This document shows positions 451 to 6,343 of a DNA stretch of 24,938 nucleotides, one piece after another. Every line of letters begins with the position of its first letter. The first letter of the stretch is position 1. A program made the translations under genes and the position numbers. The stretch is from NCBI GenBank assembly GCA_017452945.1, contig JAFTLD010000059.1, positions 1 to 24,938 of the forward strand, given 5' to 3'. The notes below the pieces were generated by a model. The model had not been told where the DNA came from and did not search any database. It worked only from the letters and a program-made list of their open reading frames with translations. This DNA comes from Clostridia bacterium (GTDB lineage: Bacteria; Bacillota_A; Clostridia; Oscillospirales; CAG-272).

Positions 451-840
451 TTAATCAAAGGATGTAAAACTCAGTTCTACTTGCTGCAATGATGTCTTGA
501 AGGAGGAATCGATCATCTGCGCGGAAGAACACATAACCGTCACCAGCTTGGATTGGTAGAATTGGATTGAAGGCGCTGTAAACGTTATGGAGAGTGCATC
601 CGAAGCATGAAAATACAGAATTTCGATTAATACGCGGTGATGAAGTGCCAGTTTGCAGCCGCAATACAGAGCATTGCCGTATTTTTTGAATTTTTGATAT
701 TTAGGCAATGCAAGCTCTGCCTCTGTGCGTTCCCAGGAGCGTTCCAGAAGAAGCTCTTCGTCTACGCTTGAATTTTGAGCGAGGTCAGTGAAATCGGCAT
801 GAAAAAGTAAGTCCTGATGATCGAAAAAAGAATGTTTCAT
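451..840 (-). CDS. Hypothetical protein, 129 aa, behind a structured leader RNA
   Basis: I do not recognise this protein. The start at 840 is chosen because GGAGAG (846-851) sits 5 nt upstream. The open frame continues further upstream, but only by reading through the structured RNA. The product has no signal peptide or membrane segment and looks soluble. It begins MKHSFFDHQDLLFHADF, has an acidic/leucine-rich patch near residues 30-45, three scattered cysteines including a CGC, and a serine/glutamine-rich C-terminal third. The terminator hairpin at 863-886 ends only 13 nt before the Shine-Dalgarno site, and I see no separate promoter between them, so expression probably needs read-through of that terminator. 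The function is unknown. Its reality as a gene rests on the ribosome site, the length and the context. Confidence 0.6.
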   Translation of the reverse strand: MKHSFFDHQDLLFHADFTDLAQNSSVDEELLLERSWERTEAELALPKYQKFKKYGNALYCGCKLALHHRVLIEILYFHASDALSITFTAPSIQFYQSKLVTVMCSSAQMIDSSFKTSLQQVELSFTSFD

Positions 841-853
841 TGTTTCTCTCTCC

Positions 854-886
854 AAAATAAAAAGTGCGCAGCCGAAGCTACGCACT
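854..886 (-). terminator. Intrinsic terminator ending the structured RNA, possible attenuator
   Basis: Ten base pairs (863-872 with 877-886) close a UUCG tetraloop, followed on the minus strand by TTTTTATTTT. The one non-Watson-Crick pair is G-U when read as minus-strand RNA. It lies between the structured RNA and the ribosome site of the 451-840 gene, so it either ends a stand-alone RNA or works as an attenuator. The 3' strand of the RNA's closing helix plus the next three bases (GTG-T-CGCAGC) could pair with the terminator's 3' arm (GCTGCGCAC) with one bulged base, giving a competing fold. Confidence 0.88.
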
Positions 887-1048
887 GAAAAATGGTAGCC
901 CCAATTGCTGCGACACAAGTGTTTTCGAATAGCTGAAAGTACAAGACCAAAGCATACGAAAATGGAGCGTACATTTTTACCTATGGTAAAAACGTACACT
1001 ATGATCCATGTACTTTCGGGCCGAAGCCCATTATTCACTTGTGTCGCA
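854..1048 (-). ncRNA. Highly structured RNA of about 190 nt, unidentified (riboswitch-like leader or 6S-like RNA)
   Basis: Read on the minus strand from about 1048, the transcript begins with a 12-13 bp closing helix (1036-1048 with 909-921, core GCGACACAAGTG/CACTTGTGTCGC). Inside are a small GGGC-UUCG-GCCC hairpin, an 8 bp helix GAAAGTAC/GTACTTTC (1010-1017 with 935-942), a 5 bp helix ATGGA/TCCAT (1005-1009 with 962-966), and a 15 bp apical stem with a 3-nt loop (985-999 with 967-981). All non-Watson-Crick pairs are G-U on this strand, and would be A-C on the other, which fixes the orientation. A SigA promoter places the start at the first closing pair, and a terminator follows. I do not recognise T-box, SAM, TPP, fluoride or guanidine motifs. 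The long rod with an asymmetric internal bulge recalls 6S RNA, but position before a gene suits a cis-acting leader. Identity is open. Confidence 0.75.
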
Positions 1049-1053
1049 CGTAT

Positions 1054-1082
1054 ATTATAGCACAGCTTGCAGGAATTGTAAA
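1054..1082 (-). promoter_or_regulatory. SigA promoter of the structured RNA
   Basis: On the minus strand, TTTACA (1077-1082) and TATAAT (1054-1059) are separated by exactly 17 bp. TG one base before the -10 makes it an extended -10 promoter. The expected start, about 6-8 nt downstream, coincides with the first pair of the RNA's closing helix. Confidence 0.88.
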
Positions 1083-1160: not shown

Positions 1161-3704
1161 TTATTCCTGATTCTGCTCAATCAGCATGCCGAGTTTTGCA
1201 CGCAAGGCGTAGAATTGCTCTTGATCTGTGCTGTATTCATACATGCTGGTGGTCCACTGTGCGATCAAGCCGTCCACGGTTTCCTCACCGTAGATTTCCT
1301 GAAGCAAGGTCAGATAGTCAAAGTCTTCCAGTCCGTCACGTACGCATTCCATGCGAAGTGCCGGAATGGGATCGCGATCCGCAAAATAAATACCGGAGTA
1401 GATCAGAATACCGTTGCCGTAAATGTCAATACCGTCGGATTCGCGTTTTTCATAAACGGGGTTAAAACCGTACAGCCATTGATTTCCGGTGGATTGAATG
1501 ATTTCGGGAGCACCTGTCCAGTCGTTCATGGCGTAATAGAGCAGACCGTCCACGTCATAAAGCTTTTGCTGCCAGAATACTGTTCTGCAGTTGACAGCGT
1601 CGGTGTTGATATCAAAGGTGATCTCAGGCTGGTTGGGAAGTCTGGTCAGATACCACCAAACCTCATCACCGCCCTCGGCCTCGGTCTTCATGCGGTCGCG
1701 GAATGTACCGAAATCGGATTCTGCGATGACGGGCATACGATAGTAAAGATCGGGGTTCTGCTTCCATTCGGCAAAGGAGTGGAAGAAGAAATTGTGCGGA
1801 CACCATGCAGTCACAGAGTCGGCTACGTAGGAGAAGAAGTCACCACCGGCGATCATGCTGTTCAGATGCATGGGGATGATCAGTTTGTAGCCGGGGAAGT
1901 GCTCTTTAAGCAGGCTGCCTGCGGCATTGATCCTGTTGAGATCGTTGACGTCCTTGGGCTCGTCGACCGGGTAGAAATACGCCTTATCCAACCATTCCTG
2001 CTTTTGCGAGAGTACGGCATAAGCATTGGAAACGTTGGTTGCGTTCAAATCAGTTTTCCAACCGAGTGTCTGGAAGCATTGCACGCGCGGGTCGTCCAGA
2101 TATTGCATGAGTATTTCGCTGTCGAACAGACCGTCTTTGTTTTCAACGGGGAGAGAATAGGGATTGATGCGGTAATCAAGGGCAAATTCGTAGTAGCCCT
2201 GAATCAGCGTTTGTCCCTCGTAATTCAATACCTCACCGGGATAATCTCTGTAGGTCATGTAGATGCTGTAGCTGTCCAGATCCATCAGCGTCTTGCAAGA
2301 GGGAGTAAGCGGCAGAGAGAAATCCCAAACGTATGCAAATACGGTTGCTTTTTTGATCTCGTTGCCATCTGCATCGGTTACGGTAAAGGTTGCGGTATAT
2401 TCACCTGCGGGCGCATCTGTGGGGGCTGTTGCCTTGATCACAAAAGTCTGGCTTTGTCCGGCCTTGATGTCAAAGCCGTCGTATTTCTGGAAGTTGGGAA
2501 TGATGTCACCGGTTGAGTTTTGGCCGTTTTGGCGGTCGATCATTTCCTGGTCGCGCTCGTAGGTGACCTTGGGAAGCGGCTCAATGACCGTTTTGCCGCC
2601 GATATCAACAAAGTAGTAGCCCCAGCGCAGATCACTTTCCAGCACGTCACCGGCAGCATTGGTAAAGTCGGTAACGTAGACCTTGAGACCGCTTACGTCG
2701 GTGGCGGGTGCGAGCAATACCTGGCAGCCCTCGGTTTCGTTGCCGGCAAGGAAGATCTGATAGGTATCTCTGCCGGTGGAGGTCACGTTGTCCTGCGGTG
2801 TACGGTTGTACAGGTGATCAAACCACATGGAAAGCGTTGCATCCTCATGCTCGGCAATCAGAGGAGAGTAGGAATCAAAGGCGGTTGTGGGAAACGTAAC
2901 GCCCGAGAGCAGTTCAAGCGCATCGGCCTTGGCCTTGTCGCTGATCGGAATACCAACGGCATTCATGTCAAGGTTAAGCGATTCGTAGAAGAAATCTGCA
3001 TTGGGCAGCAAACGGATTTCAGCGATTTGCAAGGTCTCACCTGCTGCGAGTGCGTTTGTCATGTAGTCAAAGCGCAGACTGTTCAGGCGTTCCTTCCATT
3101 TGCTTTGGGTGGTCATATCAAACATGATGTATTGCCATTCGGACTTGTCTGGAGAGAAGACCGAGGTCACGTAAGCGTCACCTGAAATGCCGGACATGCC
3201 CTTGGCTTTATAAAACAGCTCAAACGTGCCAGTGGAGCAGCCAACACTGCGCACCTTGAGCAAAACGTAAGGATAATCGCTGATGTTGGGAGAGTCCAGG
3301 CCGGTGTATCTGTAGAACTTGCTGCAATCAAACATCACGTTGGGGTCGTTGGCATTTGCTTGATTGGTAGTTAGCGAAAAGTATTTTTCTCCGCCCTCTT
3401 CTACCTCTACCGTAAAGGTAGTCTGTCCGGCAGAGCCAAAGCATTTCGCCAGCTTTTCATCGTCCAAAAGGTCGAAATCCATAATACAGTTTTCCGGAAT
3501 CGGTACCTCAAGTACCTCAGTGGTCAGTTCTTCGCTGCTTGCAGGCGCATCCGTGGTTCCCTCGGTGGAAGGCTCTTCGGTGGACACGTCCGAAGTGTCG
3601 GGAGCATCGGTTTCCGTGTCGAACGAGGAATCGCCGCCTGTGCAGGAGGCGAGCAGCATGCAAAGCAAAAGCAGCATGGCAATGACAATTGTGAGTTTTT
3701 TCAT
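1161..3704 (-). CDS. DUF4091/GH123-like surface lipoprotein, 847 aa (paralog 1)
   Basis: This is a large extracellular lipoprotein. The start at 3704 gives a type II signal peptide with lipobox LASC (Cys21), and AGAGAGGTG lies just upstream; the longer open frame would spoil the signal. A low-complexity Ser/Thr/Glu/Asp linker (about 22-70) follows, then beta-rich N-terminal domains (about 75-460), then a region like the catalytic domain of DUF4091/GH123 proteins. It contains YPVDEP with an adjacent Asp581-Glu582 pair and ends with the DUF4091-type RMECVRDGLEDFDYL. In GH123 N-acetylgalactosaminidases an Asp-Glu pair is catalytic, with the substrate acetamido group taking part; a hydrolase acting on glycans at the cell surface is therefore likely, but the substrate is inferred. 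It has its own promoter and terminator. It is closely similar to the neighbour at 3818-6343 over nearly its whole length. Confidence 0.85.
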   Translation of the reverse strand: MKKLTIVIAMLLLLCMLLASCTGGDSSFDTETDAPDTSDVSTEEPSTEGTTDAPASSEELTTEVLEVPIPENCIMDFDLLDDEKLAKCFGSAGQTTFTVEVEEGGEKYFSLTTNQANANDPNVMFDCSKFYRYTGLDSPNISDYPYVLLKVRSVGCSTGTFELFYKAKGMSGISGDAYVTSVFSPDKSEWQYIMFDMTTQSKWKERLNSLRFDYMTNALAAGETLQIAEIRLLPNADFFYESLNLDMNAVGIPISDKAKADALELLSGVTFPTTAFDSYSPLIAEHEDATLSMWFDHLYNRTPQDNVTSTGRDTYQIFLAGNETEGCQVLLAPATDVSGLKVYVTDFTNAAGDVLESDLRWGYYFVDIGGKTVIEPLPKVTYERDQEMIDRQNGQNSTGDIIPNFQKYDGFDIKAGQSQTFVIKATAPTDAPAGEYTATFTVTDADGNEIKKATVFAYVWDFSLPLTPSCKTLMDLDSYSIYMTYRDYPGEVLNYEGQTLIQGYYEFALDYRINPYSLPVENKDGLFDSEILMQYLDDPRVQCFQTLGWKTDLNATNVSNAYAVLSQKQEWLDKAYFYPVDEPKDVNDLNRINAAGSLLKEHFPGYKLIIPMHLNSMIAGGDFFSYVADSVTAWCPHNFFFHSFAEWKQNPDLYYRMPVIAESDFGTFRDRMKTEAEGGDEVWWYLTRLPNQPEITFDINTDAVNCRTVFWQQKLYDVDGLLYYAMNDWTGAPEIIQSTGNQWLYGFNPVYEKRESDGIDIYGNGILIYSGIYFADRDPIPALRMECVRDGLEDFDYLTLLQEIYGEETVDGLIAQWTTSMYEYSTDQEQFYALRAKLGMLIEQNQE

Positions 3705-3734
3705 GTTGCACCTCTCTTTTCCTGAGTTACCTTT

Positions 3735-3763
3735 ATTATAAACGAAAATGACGCGCTTGTCAA
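3735..3763 (-). promoter_or_regulatory. Perfect consensus SigA promoter of paralog 1
   Basis: On the minus strand, TTGACA (3758-3763) and TATAAT (3735-3740) have a 17-bp spacer, a full match to the SigA consensus. The -35 begins just after the T-rich tail of the upstream gene's terminator, so the two tandem paralogs are insulated and separately transcribed. Confidence 0.92.
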
Positions 3764-3808
3764 TAAAGAAAGGGCAGAGTTGCACAATAACATCGTGCAA
3801 CTCTGCCC
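3762..3808 (-). terminator. Strong terminator of the three-gene lipoprotein operon
   Basis: A perfect 14-bp stem (3795-3808 with 3772-3785, GGGCAGAGTTGCAC and its complement) with a 9-nt loop is followed on the minus strand by TTTCTTTATT. It starts 9 nt after the stop codon at 3818. Confidence 0.92.
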
Positions 3809-3817
3809 ATAAGGGAT

Positions 3818-6343
3818 TTACTGATTGGCGTTTTGCTCCAGCAAGAGTCCGAGCTGCGTGCGCAGCGCATCGAATTGCTCTTCGTCCGTGCTGTAAACGC
3901 CCAAACCTGTGGTCCAGGTCGAGATCATTCCGTTGACTACCTCGGTTCCGTAGATCTTTTCCAGCATGGTCAGGTATTCAAAGTCCTCAATACCGTCGCG
4001 TACTGCCTCCAGACGAAGGCTGCCAACAGGCTCCGGCTGTGCGAAATTGATGCCGCTGTAAAGCAACACGCCATTTCCGTATACCGTGATATTGTCACCC
4101 CAGATCTCACGCTTACCGTCCAGACCCGAATTCAGATGACTCCAATCACAGACCGAATAATACAGGTAGTGATCTACCCCGTACAGCTTCTGCTGCCAGA
4201 ACAGCGTTCTGCAATTGACGGTTTCGGTATTGATCACAGTTGCGATTTCCGGCTCAATGGGATATGCAGTGACGTACCACCATACCTCATCGCCGCCTGC
4301 CTGCTCCTGCTTCATTCGCTCTCTGATCGGGCCCAGCTTAGACTCCAGCACCATGGAGGTGTCATAAGTCAGATTGCGGTTTCCGTACCATTCCGCGAAG
4401 GTGGTAAAGAAATAGGTGTGCATGCACCAAGCGGTCACGCTGTCCTGCAGATAGGAAATGTAGTCACCGTTGGCAATATTATAGTTCACGTGCATGGGAG
4501 CGATCAGCTTATAGCCGGGGAAATGCTGCTTGAGCAGATCCGCATTGGAAACGATTCTGTCCAGCATGTCCTTATCGGCAGGCTCGTCAACGGGATAGAA
4601 GTACGCTTTATCCAGCCATTCCTGCTTTTGTGAGAGGAACGCGTATGCATTGGAAACGTTGGTTGCATTCAGATCTGTCTTCCAACCAAGCGCTTGGAAT
4701 GCGGTTACGCGAGGATTGTCCAAATATTCCACAATGCCTTCTGCCGAGAAGGTACCGTCCTCATTATCAAAGGGCAGCGAATAGCCGCAAATGCGGTTCT
4801 CAAGCATGTAATCATAATAAGCGCGGTACAGGGAGCGACCGTTTTCGTCTGTCAGAATGCCTGCATAATCAATATAGCTTGCGTAAATAGAGTAGGAACT
4901 CAGATCCATCAGTGTTTTACATGCGGTGGCATCCGAAAGCTCGAAATTCCAAACGTATGCGAATACGGTAGCCTTTTTGATCTCGTTTCCGCTCTCGTCT
5001 GTAAATGTGACCGTGGCGCTGTATTCACCTGCAGGGGTATCCTTGGTGGAGTGAGCCTTGATTACAAAGCTTTGGTTTTGTCCTGCGGCAATATCAAAGC
5101 CGTCGTATTTCTGCAGGTCTTCAAAGATCTTACCTGTCGAGTTGCCGCCGTTCAGCCAGGCTTGCATATCGGGATCGGGGGTGTAATCCACGCGGGGCAG
5201 GGGATCGATCAGCATCTGTCCCTCCACGTCAAAGTAATATCCCCATAAAACCTCGGTTTTCATGATGTCACCGTTTGCATTGGTAAAGTCGCTGACGTAT
5301 ATCTTGACGTTTTGCACGTCCTTGTCAGCAGCTAAAATGACCTGACAACCTTCGATCTCGTTCTTGGCAAGGCGGATCTGATAGGTATCCAAGCTAAGGG
5401 AAGTGTTGTCATTTTGCGCAGTTCGGTCAAAGAGGTGATCGAACCATACGTGCAGGGCACTGTCCTCATGCTCTGCTGTTAAGGGTGTATAGGTATCATA
5501 AGCCGTGGCAGGCATTTTCAGATCCGAAAGTAATGCGGCTGCCTGATCCTTGGCTGCCTGATCTACGGGGATTCCGATAGCGTCCCAATCAATGGAAAAG
5601 CCCTTGTAATATTCCTCGTCGGTTGTGACAAAATGGATGTCTGAGATGCACAGTGCCTGTCCTGCAGCACTCGTACCGGATGACCAGTCCAGACGCAGCG
5701 TTTCCAGAGTCCCTGTCCAGAGGGGATTGTCGGAAAAATCGAACAGGATATATTGCCAATCGCTCTCTCCCGTATCAAAGGTTGCAGAGTAAACCTTGGC
5801 ACCGTCGATGCCGGAGGAGGATTTGGTAGCAAAGAACAGATCAAAGGAACCGCCCTCCAGTCCGTTTTCGCATTTGATTCGCATGATCACGTAGGGTGTT
5901 TGTGTCAGCTCGATCGCTTCCGTAGAGAAGGTCCTTCTGAATCTCGAGTAGCTGAACATGATGTTGGGATCCTGCGAGGGGGCTGTTGCTGTCAGCTTAA
6001 TATAAGTGTGACCGTCTTCTCCTGTTTCCAGAGTCGCCTCGGTTGCGTTTGCGCCCGAAAAGGCTCGCAGCAGTTTGTCCGCATTGTCCGGATCCATATC
6101 GAAGCTGATGGAGGGGGAATCCTCGGGAGTGTCGGTCGGGGGTTCTGTTTGCGTCTCTGTTATGGTGGTGTCCGAGGCGGTGCTCTGTTCTTCGGGAACT
6201 TGGGTGGTTTCCTCGGCGGAGGGCTCGGATGTCGTGTGGTCGGTCGTTTCGATCGTGTCACTTTGTCCGCCCGTGCAGGCAGCAAGAATGACCGTGCTAA
6301 ACAAGAAGACCAGCAAAAGTATTAAAAACACGTGCTTTCTCAT
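3818..6343 (-). CDS. DUF4091/GH123-like surface lipoprotein, 841 aa (paralog 2)
   Basis: The layout matches paralog 1: signal peptide with lipobox LAAC (Cys23), Thr/Glu-rich linker (about 24-75), beta-rich N-terminal region, then the DUF4091/GH123-like domain with YPVDEP (Asp586-Glu587) and the C-terminal RLEAVRDGIEDFEYL. Long stretches are identical to paralog 1, including SQKQEWLDKAYFYPVDEP and VNCRTLFWQQKLYGVD. The two differ mainly in the linker and around residues 700-760, where this copy has an extra LNSGLDGKREIWG segment. AGAGAGG lies just upstream of the ATG. The gene starts 17 nt after the acyltransferase-like gene, so it is probably the third gene of the operon driven from 8157-8185. 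A glycan-acting surface enzyme is the likely role by family; the substrate is unknown. Confidence 0.85.
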   Translation of the reverse strand: MRKHVFLILLLVFLFSTVILAACTGGQSDTIETTDHTTSEPSAEETTQVPEEQSTASDTTITETQTEPPTDTPEDSPSISFDMDPDNADKLLRAFSGANATEATLETGEDGHTYIKLTATAPSQDPNIMFSYSRFRRTFSTEAIELTQTPYVIMRIKCENGLEGGSFDLFFATKSSSGIDGAKVYSATFDTGESDWQYILFDFSDNPLWTGTLETLRLDWSSGTSAAGQALCISDIHFVTTDEEYYKGFSIDWDAIGIPVDQAAKDQAAALLSDLKMPATAYDTYTPLTAEHEDSALHVWFDHLFDRTAQNDNTSLSLDTYQIRLAKNEIEGCQVILAADKDVQNVKIYVSDFTNANGDIMKTEVLWGYYFDVEGQMLIDPLPRVDYTPDPDMQAWLNGGNSTGKIFEDLQKYDGFDIAAGQNQSFVIKAHSTKDTPAGEYSATVTFTDESGNEIKKATVFAYVWNFELSDATACKTLMDLSSYSIYASYIDYAGILTDENGRSLYRAYYDYMLENRICGYSLPFDNEDGTFSAEGIVEYLDNPRVTAFQALGWKTDLNATNVSNAYAFLSQKQEWLDKAYFYPVDEPADKDMLDRIVSNADLLKQHFPGYKLIAPMHVNYNIANGDYISYLQDSVTAWCMHTYFFTTFAEWYGNRNLTYDTSMVLESKLGPIRERMKQEQAGGDEVWWYVTAYPIEPEIATVINTETVNCRTLFWQQKLYGVDHYLYYSVCDWSHLNSGLDGKREIWGDNITVYGNGVLLYSGINFAQPEPVGSLRLEAVRDGIEDFEYLTMLEKIYGTEVVNGMISTWTTGLGVYSTDEEQFDALRTQLGLLLEQNANQ

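Follow-up and report, generated by a model that had tools for sequence, protein, structure and literature searches.

The locus

The window analyzed here, a stretch of 24,938 nucleotides from a Clostridia bacterium (contig JAFTLD010000059.1), had been described in a first-pass annotation as carrying, in front of an orphan gene, a structured RNA equipped with a promoter and a terminator of its own. When the minus strand is read from 1082 to 840, we found in this order a promoter, a closing helix, an inner domain, a linker, a UUCG terminator, a ribosome-binding site, and the gene. The individual features are the following.

1054 to 1082, minus strand: SigA-type promoter, with a -35 element TTTACA at 1082-1077 and an extended -10 element TGcTATAAT at 1062-1054; start expected near 1047
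1036 to 1047, minus strand: 5′ strand of the closing helix P1, GCGACACAAGTG (fold; covariation)
1018 to 1029, minus strand: GGGC-UUCG-GCCC hairpin, located in the variable arm of the window copy (fold)
935 to 1017, minus strand: inner arm P2, variable in sequence and length, its base formed by 1017-1009 with 943-935 (fold, alignment)
994 to 1000, minus strand: pivot strand AGTGTAC, whose partner is 957-951 (P2b) or 972-966 (P3 extension)
973 to 993, minus strand: apical hairpin P3, GTTTTTACC-ATA-GGTAAAAAT, carrying the conserved GGYAAAA motif (fold, alignment)
964 to 973, minus strand: J strand TGTACGCTCC, partner of the linker or retained in the P3 extension
910 to 921, minus strand: 3′ strand of P1, CACTTGTGTCGC (fold; covariation)
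905 to 909, minus strand: conserved unpaired AGCAA after P1, 86-96% per position in 100 model-found units
887 to 904, minus strand: linker with U5, antiterminator strand or J partner
874 to 902, minus strand: hairpin of the antiterminator, formed by 902-891 and 886-874 at -11.2 kcal/mol; it and the terminator exclude each other
859 to 886, minus strand: UUCG-capped intrinsic terminator with U-run, -14.7 kcal/mol
850 to 853, minus strand: GGAG, the ribosome-binding site of the gene that follows (sequence)
451 to 840, minus strand: orphan gene of 129 aa, the expected read-through target (open reading frame; database comparisons)

The promoter, TTTACA-17-TATAAT with the extended TG, matched 11 of 12 positions, in agreement with the extended -10 SigA promoter of the annotation. 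P1 forms 12 perfect base pairs between 1047-1036 and 921-910, or 13 when U1048-A909 is counted, as predicted, and the predicted UUCG-capped terminator hairpin lies at 886-863 with its U-run reaching 859. An apical stem of 15 bp had also been described; the stem is present, but in the minimum free energy (MFE) structure of the window RNA the pivot strand pairs as the P3 extension and the stem has 16 bp (1000-985 with 981-966). For the RNA at 1050-854, the MFE was -83.4 kcal/mol vs -46.3 kcal/mol (sd 3.9) for shuffled sequences, corresponding to z -9.4, and 0 of 200 shuffles folded as low. The promoter match and this z score confirm the overall description of the element. The assignment to the minus strand likewise held, as the family model described below scored 120 bits on that strand and 31.7 bits on the plus strand.

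An Rfam comparison including 6S RNA had been suggested in the annotation, whose author recognized no known riboswitch or T-box motif. We found no Rfam release 15 family at its gathering threshold in the window, and at E values up to 10 there were four weak matches, all on the plus strand, the best with 22 bits against a threshold of 77. The same scan of 19 loci with relatives returned four tRNAs and nothing else. A T-box was set aside, since neither the window nor these 19 loci matched the T-box model.

The orphan protein (P0001) has four other members in a set of 5.8 billion proteins and matched 0 Pfam and 0 NCBIfam families. A profile of the five proteins found nothing in 394 genomes of the order, an empty result that is uninformative because the search had no known positive. 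No relatives of P0001 were found in viral_contigs, and we found no similarity between it and the DUF6809 small proteins beside other units of the RNA.

Several other features of the window were noted. Near-perfect inverted repeats with arms of ∼43 bp lie at 217-260 and 311-353 and could form a long intergenic hairpin. At 1-17 there is a short GC-rich palindrome, cttccccagcggggaag, which resembles a sequence near 75-92. On the minus strand, 1161-6343 holds two consecutive large open reading frames of 879 and 841 aa with matches to the GH123 catalytic domain. The first GH123 frame probably starts further in than annotated by the open reading frame, since a promoter match of 12 of 12 positions (3763-3735) lies within its 5′ end.

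Relatives and distribution of the RNA

A blastn search with the leader returned two contigs from human faeces that are filed under phage; on each of them, the gene that directly follows the RNA is an unrelated one. Patterns derived from these contigs recovered three true relatives among eight IMG/VR loci, the other five (L007, L008, L010, L012, and L013) being chance matches by eye. Under the name "Bacteriophage sp.," MT835845.1 (L002) codes for proteins of bacterial appearance and is therefore probably host DNA; we take these proteins to be an iron hydrogenase, a Rex-like protein, and a YicC-like protein.

Pattern scanning of the GTDB genome set gave at least 119 stretches, and the pattern matches in all loci together yielded at least 112 distinct relatives. 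Nearly all of the 80 matches listed are titled Clostridia (Oscillospiraceae, Ruminococcaceae, Ruminococcus, Clostridia, and similar), mostly MAGs, and the clear taxonomic exception among them, L066 from Pseudomonadota, is a chance match. For the pattern set we took 126 matches, skipping the copies L004-L006, and removed the chance matches L066 and L112 together with L043, L048, L056, L083, L090, and L109, which have no recognized 5′ strand; the resulting 118 became 113 distinct RNAs, window included, after removal of five near-duplicates. The invariance of part of the P1 3′ strand, of AGCAA, and of the linker end in these 113 rows is no proof of conservation since the scan pattern fixes them. 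A pattern built on the terminator only found one locus, already among the known relatives.

The covariance model has 161 positions and 36 pairs. With stricter filters it matched 50 of 50 source genomes, as expected by construction, at 1 to 24 copies each. Among genomes sampled around G023 (titled Ruminiclostridium sp.), with up to seven candidates scored per genome, 142 of 394 from the order and 99 of 391 from the class carried a match. From the model we assembled a second set of 100 units, of which 77 fall outside the scan pattern and 23 match it; eight have the same sequence as pattern-set RNAs. Sixty loci of this set were drawn from the best-scoring among the matches listed, and most of L163-L182 were picked for their tandem appearance or their origin in multicopy genomes. 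None of the papers listed by literature searches describes this RNA; our search terms had no match in PMC11109978 and matched passages of PMC8632094, PMC2864571, and PMC8040213. This is apparently a large, undescribed RNA family of gut bacteria. Carriers make up about a third of the sampled order and a quarter of the sampled class, one genome has up to 24 copies, and none of the curated RNA families describes it.

Some relatives merit separate mention. In a short subtype (L041, L047, L091, L104, and L116), P3 is without its long U strand. The proteins downstream of this subtype belong to a cluster of five, AMP-binding-like enzymes among them, in L047 and L104, and are related to each other and probably membrane-bound in L091 and L116. 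L003 has on its minus strand (2566-2734) a unit accompanied by a gene of 65 aa, located at the edge of a contig that by eye carries phage-like genes, and it adjoins what by eye resembles a nucleotide-sugar epimerase gene. The leader of L003 is found again in L110, and the units of L028 and L053 have related small genes behind them.

Covariation supports the fold

Standard pairs make up 97.6% of the P1 cells in the 100 model-found units, where two-sided changes occur in 12 of 12 pairs. The two strands vary jointly, with GCCACGTAAATT facing AATTTGCGTGGC, GCAGTTAAATTG facing CAATTTAACTGC, and ACCACACTAA facing TTAGTGTGGT. The whole structure scored 0.482 in these units vs 0.188 when shuffled and at most 0.093 when slid, in an alignment that was fitted to the model and is biased towards it. 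The 113 pattern-set rows were not fitted to structure; here the nested fold with the J-linker pairing scored 0.283 vs 0.166 shuffled, and the other fold (P1, P3, P3 extension, and antiterminator) scored 0.269 vs 0.165, each out of reach for all 500 shuffles, with the qualification that the shuffle and slide controls leave relatedness in place. The number of two-sided pairs was matched by 35 of 500 shuffles for the nested fold and by 12 of 500 for the other fold. The annotation had proposed a search for relatives followed by a covariation test; relatives exist, and covariation among them is strong. Short motifs, namely GGYAAAA, CUC, AGCAA, and UUUU, are conserved. Thus, like a riboswitch, the RNA has a conserved, covarying structure in a gene leader.

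Competing pairings of the linker

As the two whole folds share P1 and P3, the four switch helices were tested singly in the 113 rows. P2b scored 0.488 (0.293 shuffled, at most 0.110 slid), the J-linker pairing 0.376 (0.278 shuffled, at most 0.159 slid), the P3 extension 0.374 (0.231 shuffled, at most 0.258 slid), and the antiterminator 0.265 (0.229 shuffled, at most 0.073 slid), and for each helix 0 of 500 shuffles reached the score. Counts of two-sided pairs were reached by 66 of 500 shuffles for the J-linker pairing, by 152 for P2b, and by 175 for the five such pairs of the antiterminator. The antiterminator is the weakest of the four, with 92.3% of cells paired vs 90.5% when shuffled, and its changes are often exchanges among G-C, A-U, and G-U. 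Among single pairs of this alignment, 52-92 (91% vs 52% shuffled) and 88-184 (96% vs 83%) are strong, and 91-181 (64% vs 63%) and 49-95 (39% vs 41%) are weak. Covariation of the J-linker pairing may partly follow P3 since one strand serves both.

Pairing energies were computed in the same rows. J pairs with its own linker at -11.27 kcal/mol vs -8.58 kcal/mol with the linker of another unit, and the linker pairs with its own terminator arm at -14.18 kcal/mol vs -12.31 kcal/mol when re-paired; 0 of 200 shuffles did as well in either case, although these controls, too, leave relatedness in place. The segment from linker to arm has an MFE of -5 kcal/mol or lower in 113 of 113 units (median -11.3 kcal/mol), compared with -4.4 kcal/mol for a subset with shuffled linkers. 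In the window, the J-linker duplex comes to -8.8 kcal/mol. A window transcript ending at 874, before the 3′ arm of the terminator, has the antiterminator in both its MFE and centroid structures, and the MFE structure of the full transcript has the terminator. The computed folds therefore contain a mutually exclusive terminator and antiterminator, as in a riboswitch, with modest covariation of the latter. The J-linker and antiterminator pairings are both favored by the controls, the antiterminator less strongly.

That folds might compete as in a riboswitch had been anticipated in the first-pass annotation, and the comparative evidence upholds it for the linker, which can pair with J or with the 5′ arm of the terminator. 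The particular pairing it named, between the P1 3′ strand and the terminator 3′ arm, fared less well. It is energetically possible, with -16.1 kcal/mol in the window and a matched mean of -12.99 vs -12.23 kcal/mol re-paired (z -4.7), and a mean of 8.2 of its 9 pairs form in the 67 units with the common P1 vs 7.0 of 9 in the 33 others. However, at column 290, the most variable, 28 of those 33 units are unpaired and five have G-U; since no unit has a partner change that would re-establish the pair, compensation does not maintain the pairing there. It is possibly a further contact, perhaps used, and the competition between linker-J and linker-terminator 5′ arm has the better comparative support.

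Promoters, spacing, and tandem units

At a fixed distance, 93 of 113 units of the pattern set and 78 of 99 of the model set have a -10 element with at least 5 of 6 matches, vs 5.2% of 1000 random 45-mers. Adding a -35 element with at least 4 of 6 matches leaves 64 of 113 and 61 of 99 units, respectively, vs 1.0% of the random sequences. In the pattern set without the window (n = 112), 105 single units are followed within 400 nt by an open reading frame with a Shine-Dalgarno (SD) sequence, at a median of 23 nt past the RNA end; the spacing is below 60 nt in 78 of the 105 and 60 nt or more in 27. The remaining units have a frame without an SD sequence (4), no frame (1), a contig edge (1), or another unit (1) behind them. 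The model-found set (n = 100) gives a similar picture: 19 units are followed by another unit, and 78 of the 81 others precede an SD-preceded frame at a median of 21 nt, below 60 nt in 58 of the 78 and 60 nt or more in 20.

These observations bear on the main alternative of the annotation, a 6S-like RNA, which would bind RNA polymerase. The size, close to 190 nt, and the long closing helix suit such an RNA. However, neither the window nor the 19 relative loci contain an Rfam 6S match, genomes carry 1 to 24 copies, and most units lie less than 60 nt before genes that are diverse. We therefore rejected this candidate as exceedingly unlikely.

At some loci, two to four units stand in a row, 47-153 nt apart, with four plus a weak partial match in L173. 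Among the arrays listed, each unit has by eye a promoter-like sequence before it, and the last one stands before a gene; a promoter-like sequence before each unit is unusual for tandem riboswitches. Adjacent units often differ in P1. Among 60 other loci, one has two units. The array of L173 (G010:C26), from a genome with 24 matches, precedes a gene similar to one in L031.

Genes downstream of the RNA

We scanned 148 of 151 downstream proteins, leaving out L011, L073, and L205. They fall into 86 blastp clusters, the largest with 36 members, and their Pfam matches include LRR_5 (BspA-type leucine-rich repeats) in 36, HTH_3 in eight, AMP-binding in five, and DUF6809 in five. The DUF6809 small proteins thus recur downstream of the RNA, in L119, L203, and L239 individually, and YspA-type YAcAr is matched by two of the 148. 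By a simple sequence rule (not SignalP) applied to the 120 proteins of at least 100 aa, 90 look exported vs 139 of 606 neighboring frames (Fisher p 3e-27) and 35 look like lipoproteins vs 32 of 606, counts that kinship makes dependent. Judged from their sequences, the genes that the RNA would regulate are mostly exported and diverse, with no common pathway.

Surface proteins are a typical cyclic di-GMP regulon, so the surface-protein genes downstream would fit a cyclic di-GMP riboswitch of a new form. Such a sensor nevertheless appears very unlikely, as 22 of 40 carriers chosen from the 142 have no GGDEF match in genomes that may be incomplete, and 14 of 20 listed non-carriers have one.

The RNA could also be a stand-alone small RNA acting in trans, with the downstream gene reached by terminator leak only. 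Its own promoter and terminator, the promoter-like sequence before each tandem copy, the several copies in many genomes, and the units without a close SD-preceded frame are consistent with this. Against it, most units lie within 60 nt of an SD-preceded frame on the same strand (78 of 105 and 58 of 78), the class of the downstream gene is non-random, and a competing antiterminator segment is present in 113 of 113 units. We regard action in trans as unlikely.

Proposed mechanism

Our computations establish the structure of this RNA, its covariation, its pairing energies, the promoter-like sequence, and its position before genes. We think that the RNA is probably a cis-acting conditional terminator, a riboswitch-type leader packed as a cassette of promoter, sensor domain closed by P1, linker, terminator, ribosome-binding site, and gene. 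Once the linker and the terminator 5′ arm are transcribed, the antiterminator would form and transcription would read on. If J holds the linker, the terminator 5′ arm would be free, the terminator would form, and transcription would stop after ∼190 nt. The pivot strand (994-1000) would free J when it pairs in P2b and hide J when it pairs with it. We infer this order of events, the bound state, and the existence of a signal, which would act on the choice of the pivot.

A small molecule or an ion is the most likely signal, at somewhat below an even chance, and a protein comes second. In the latter case the RNA would be a protein-responsive attenuator, in which an RNA-binding protein or a processive antitermination factor reads P3, GGYAAAA, and AGCAA and sets the switch. 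The short conserved motifs would suit a global factor no less than a metabolite, and so would the broad range of unrelated downstream genes and the whole promoter-RNA cassette. No direct evidence speaks against it; among the downstream genes, the commonest regulator domain, HTH_3, occurs in 8 of 148 proteins. A protein-responsive attenuator seems rather unlikely, though it comes next after the small molecule or ion.

Returning to the conditional terminator, we tentatively propose a new orphan riboswitch class with an unusually broad regulon that would sense a signal common to gut Clostridia and switch surface and secreted proteins through a three-way competition for the linker. It would spread as a promoter-sensor-terminator cassette, at times in tandem, with private P1 sequences preventing misfolding between neighbors. 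If the switch reading is true, the RNA is a regulator of cell-surface proteins in poorly cultured gut bacteria, and its signal is a concrete target that can be screened for in vitro from one leader sequence.

Comparison with known systems

Unnamed entries of the Fremin and Bhatt 2021 catalogue (PMC8040213) could overlap with the family, and the catalogue may hold pieces of it without a name. 6S RNA is of similar length and has its own promoter; the present family differs in having no Rfam match, in being often multicopy, in its place before genes, and in its competing folds.

In ToxI-type RNAs of type III toxin-antitoxin systems, a promoter, a structured RNA, and a terminator stand directly before a gene, and the same arrangement is found here. 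However, the units are domains of ∼160 nt, unlike the short repeats of ToxI, and the 148 downstream proteins form 86 clusters; for these reasons, a ToxI-type RNA was set aside. No ToxN/AbiQ-type toxin is among the 25 commonest of the 64 Pfam families in these proteins.

A terminator/antiterminator switch in Firmicutes leaders is a feature of T-boxes, and the present family shares it in its computed folds. In contrast to T-box leaders, we recognized by eye no tRNA-pairing bulge in the family, and aminoacyl-tRNA and amino-acid genes are absent from the 25 commonest downstream Pfam families.

Riboswitches that terminate transcription, such as SAM-I and glycine riboswitches, consist of a sensor domain, P1, a shared linker, and a terminator before the ribosome-binding site. 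The present family resembles them in being a leader RNA with a sensor domain closed by P1, with a linker shared by the antiterminator and an upstream strand, and with a terminator placed before the ribosome-binding site. It differs in that no Rfam family matches, in that tandem units each have a promoter-like sequence in front, and in that the downstream genes are mostly exported or orphan and do not belong to one pathway. A leader that switches between terminator and antiterminator is a known kind of device, and the family, its cassette form, and its gene set appear to be new.
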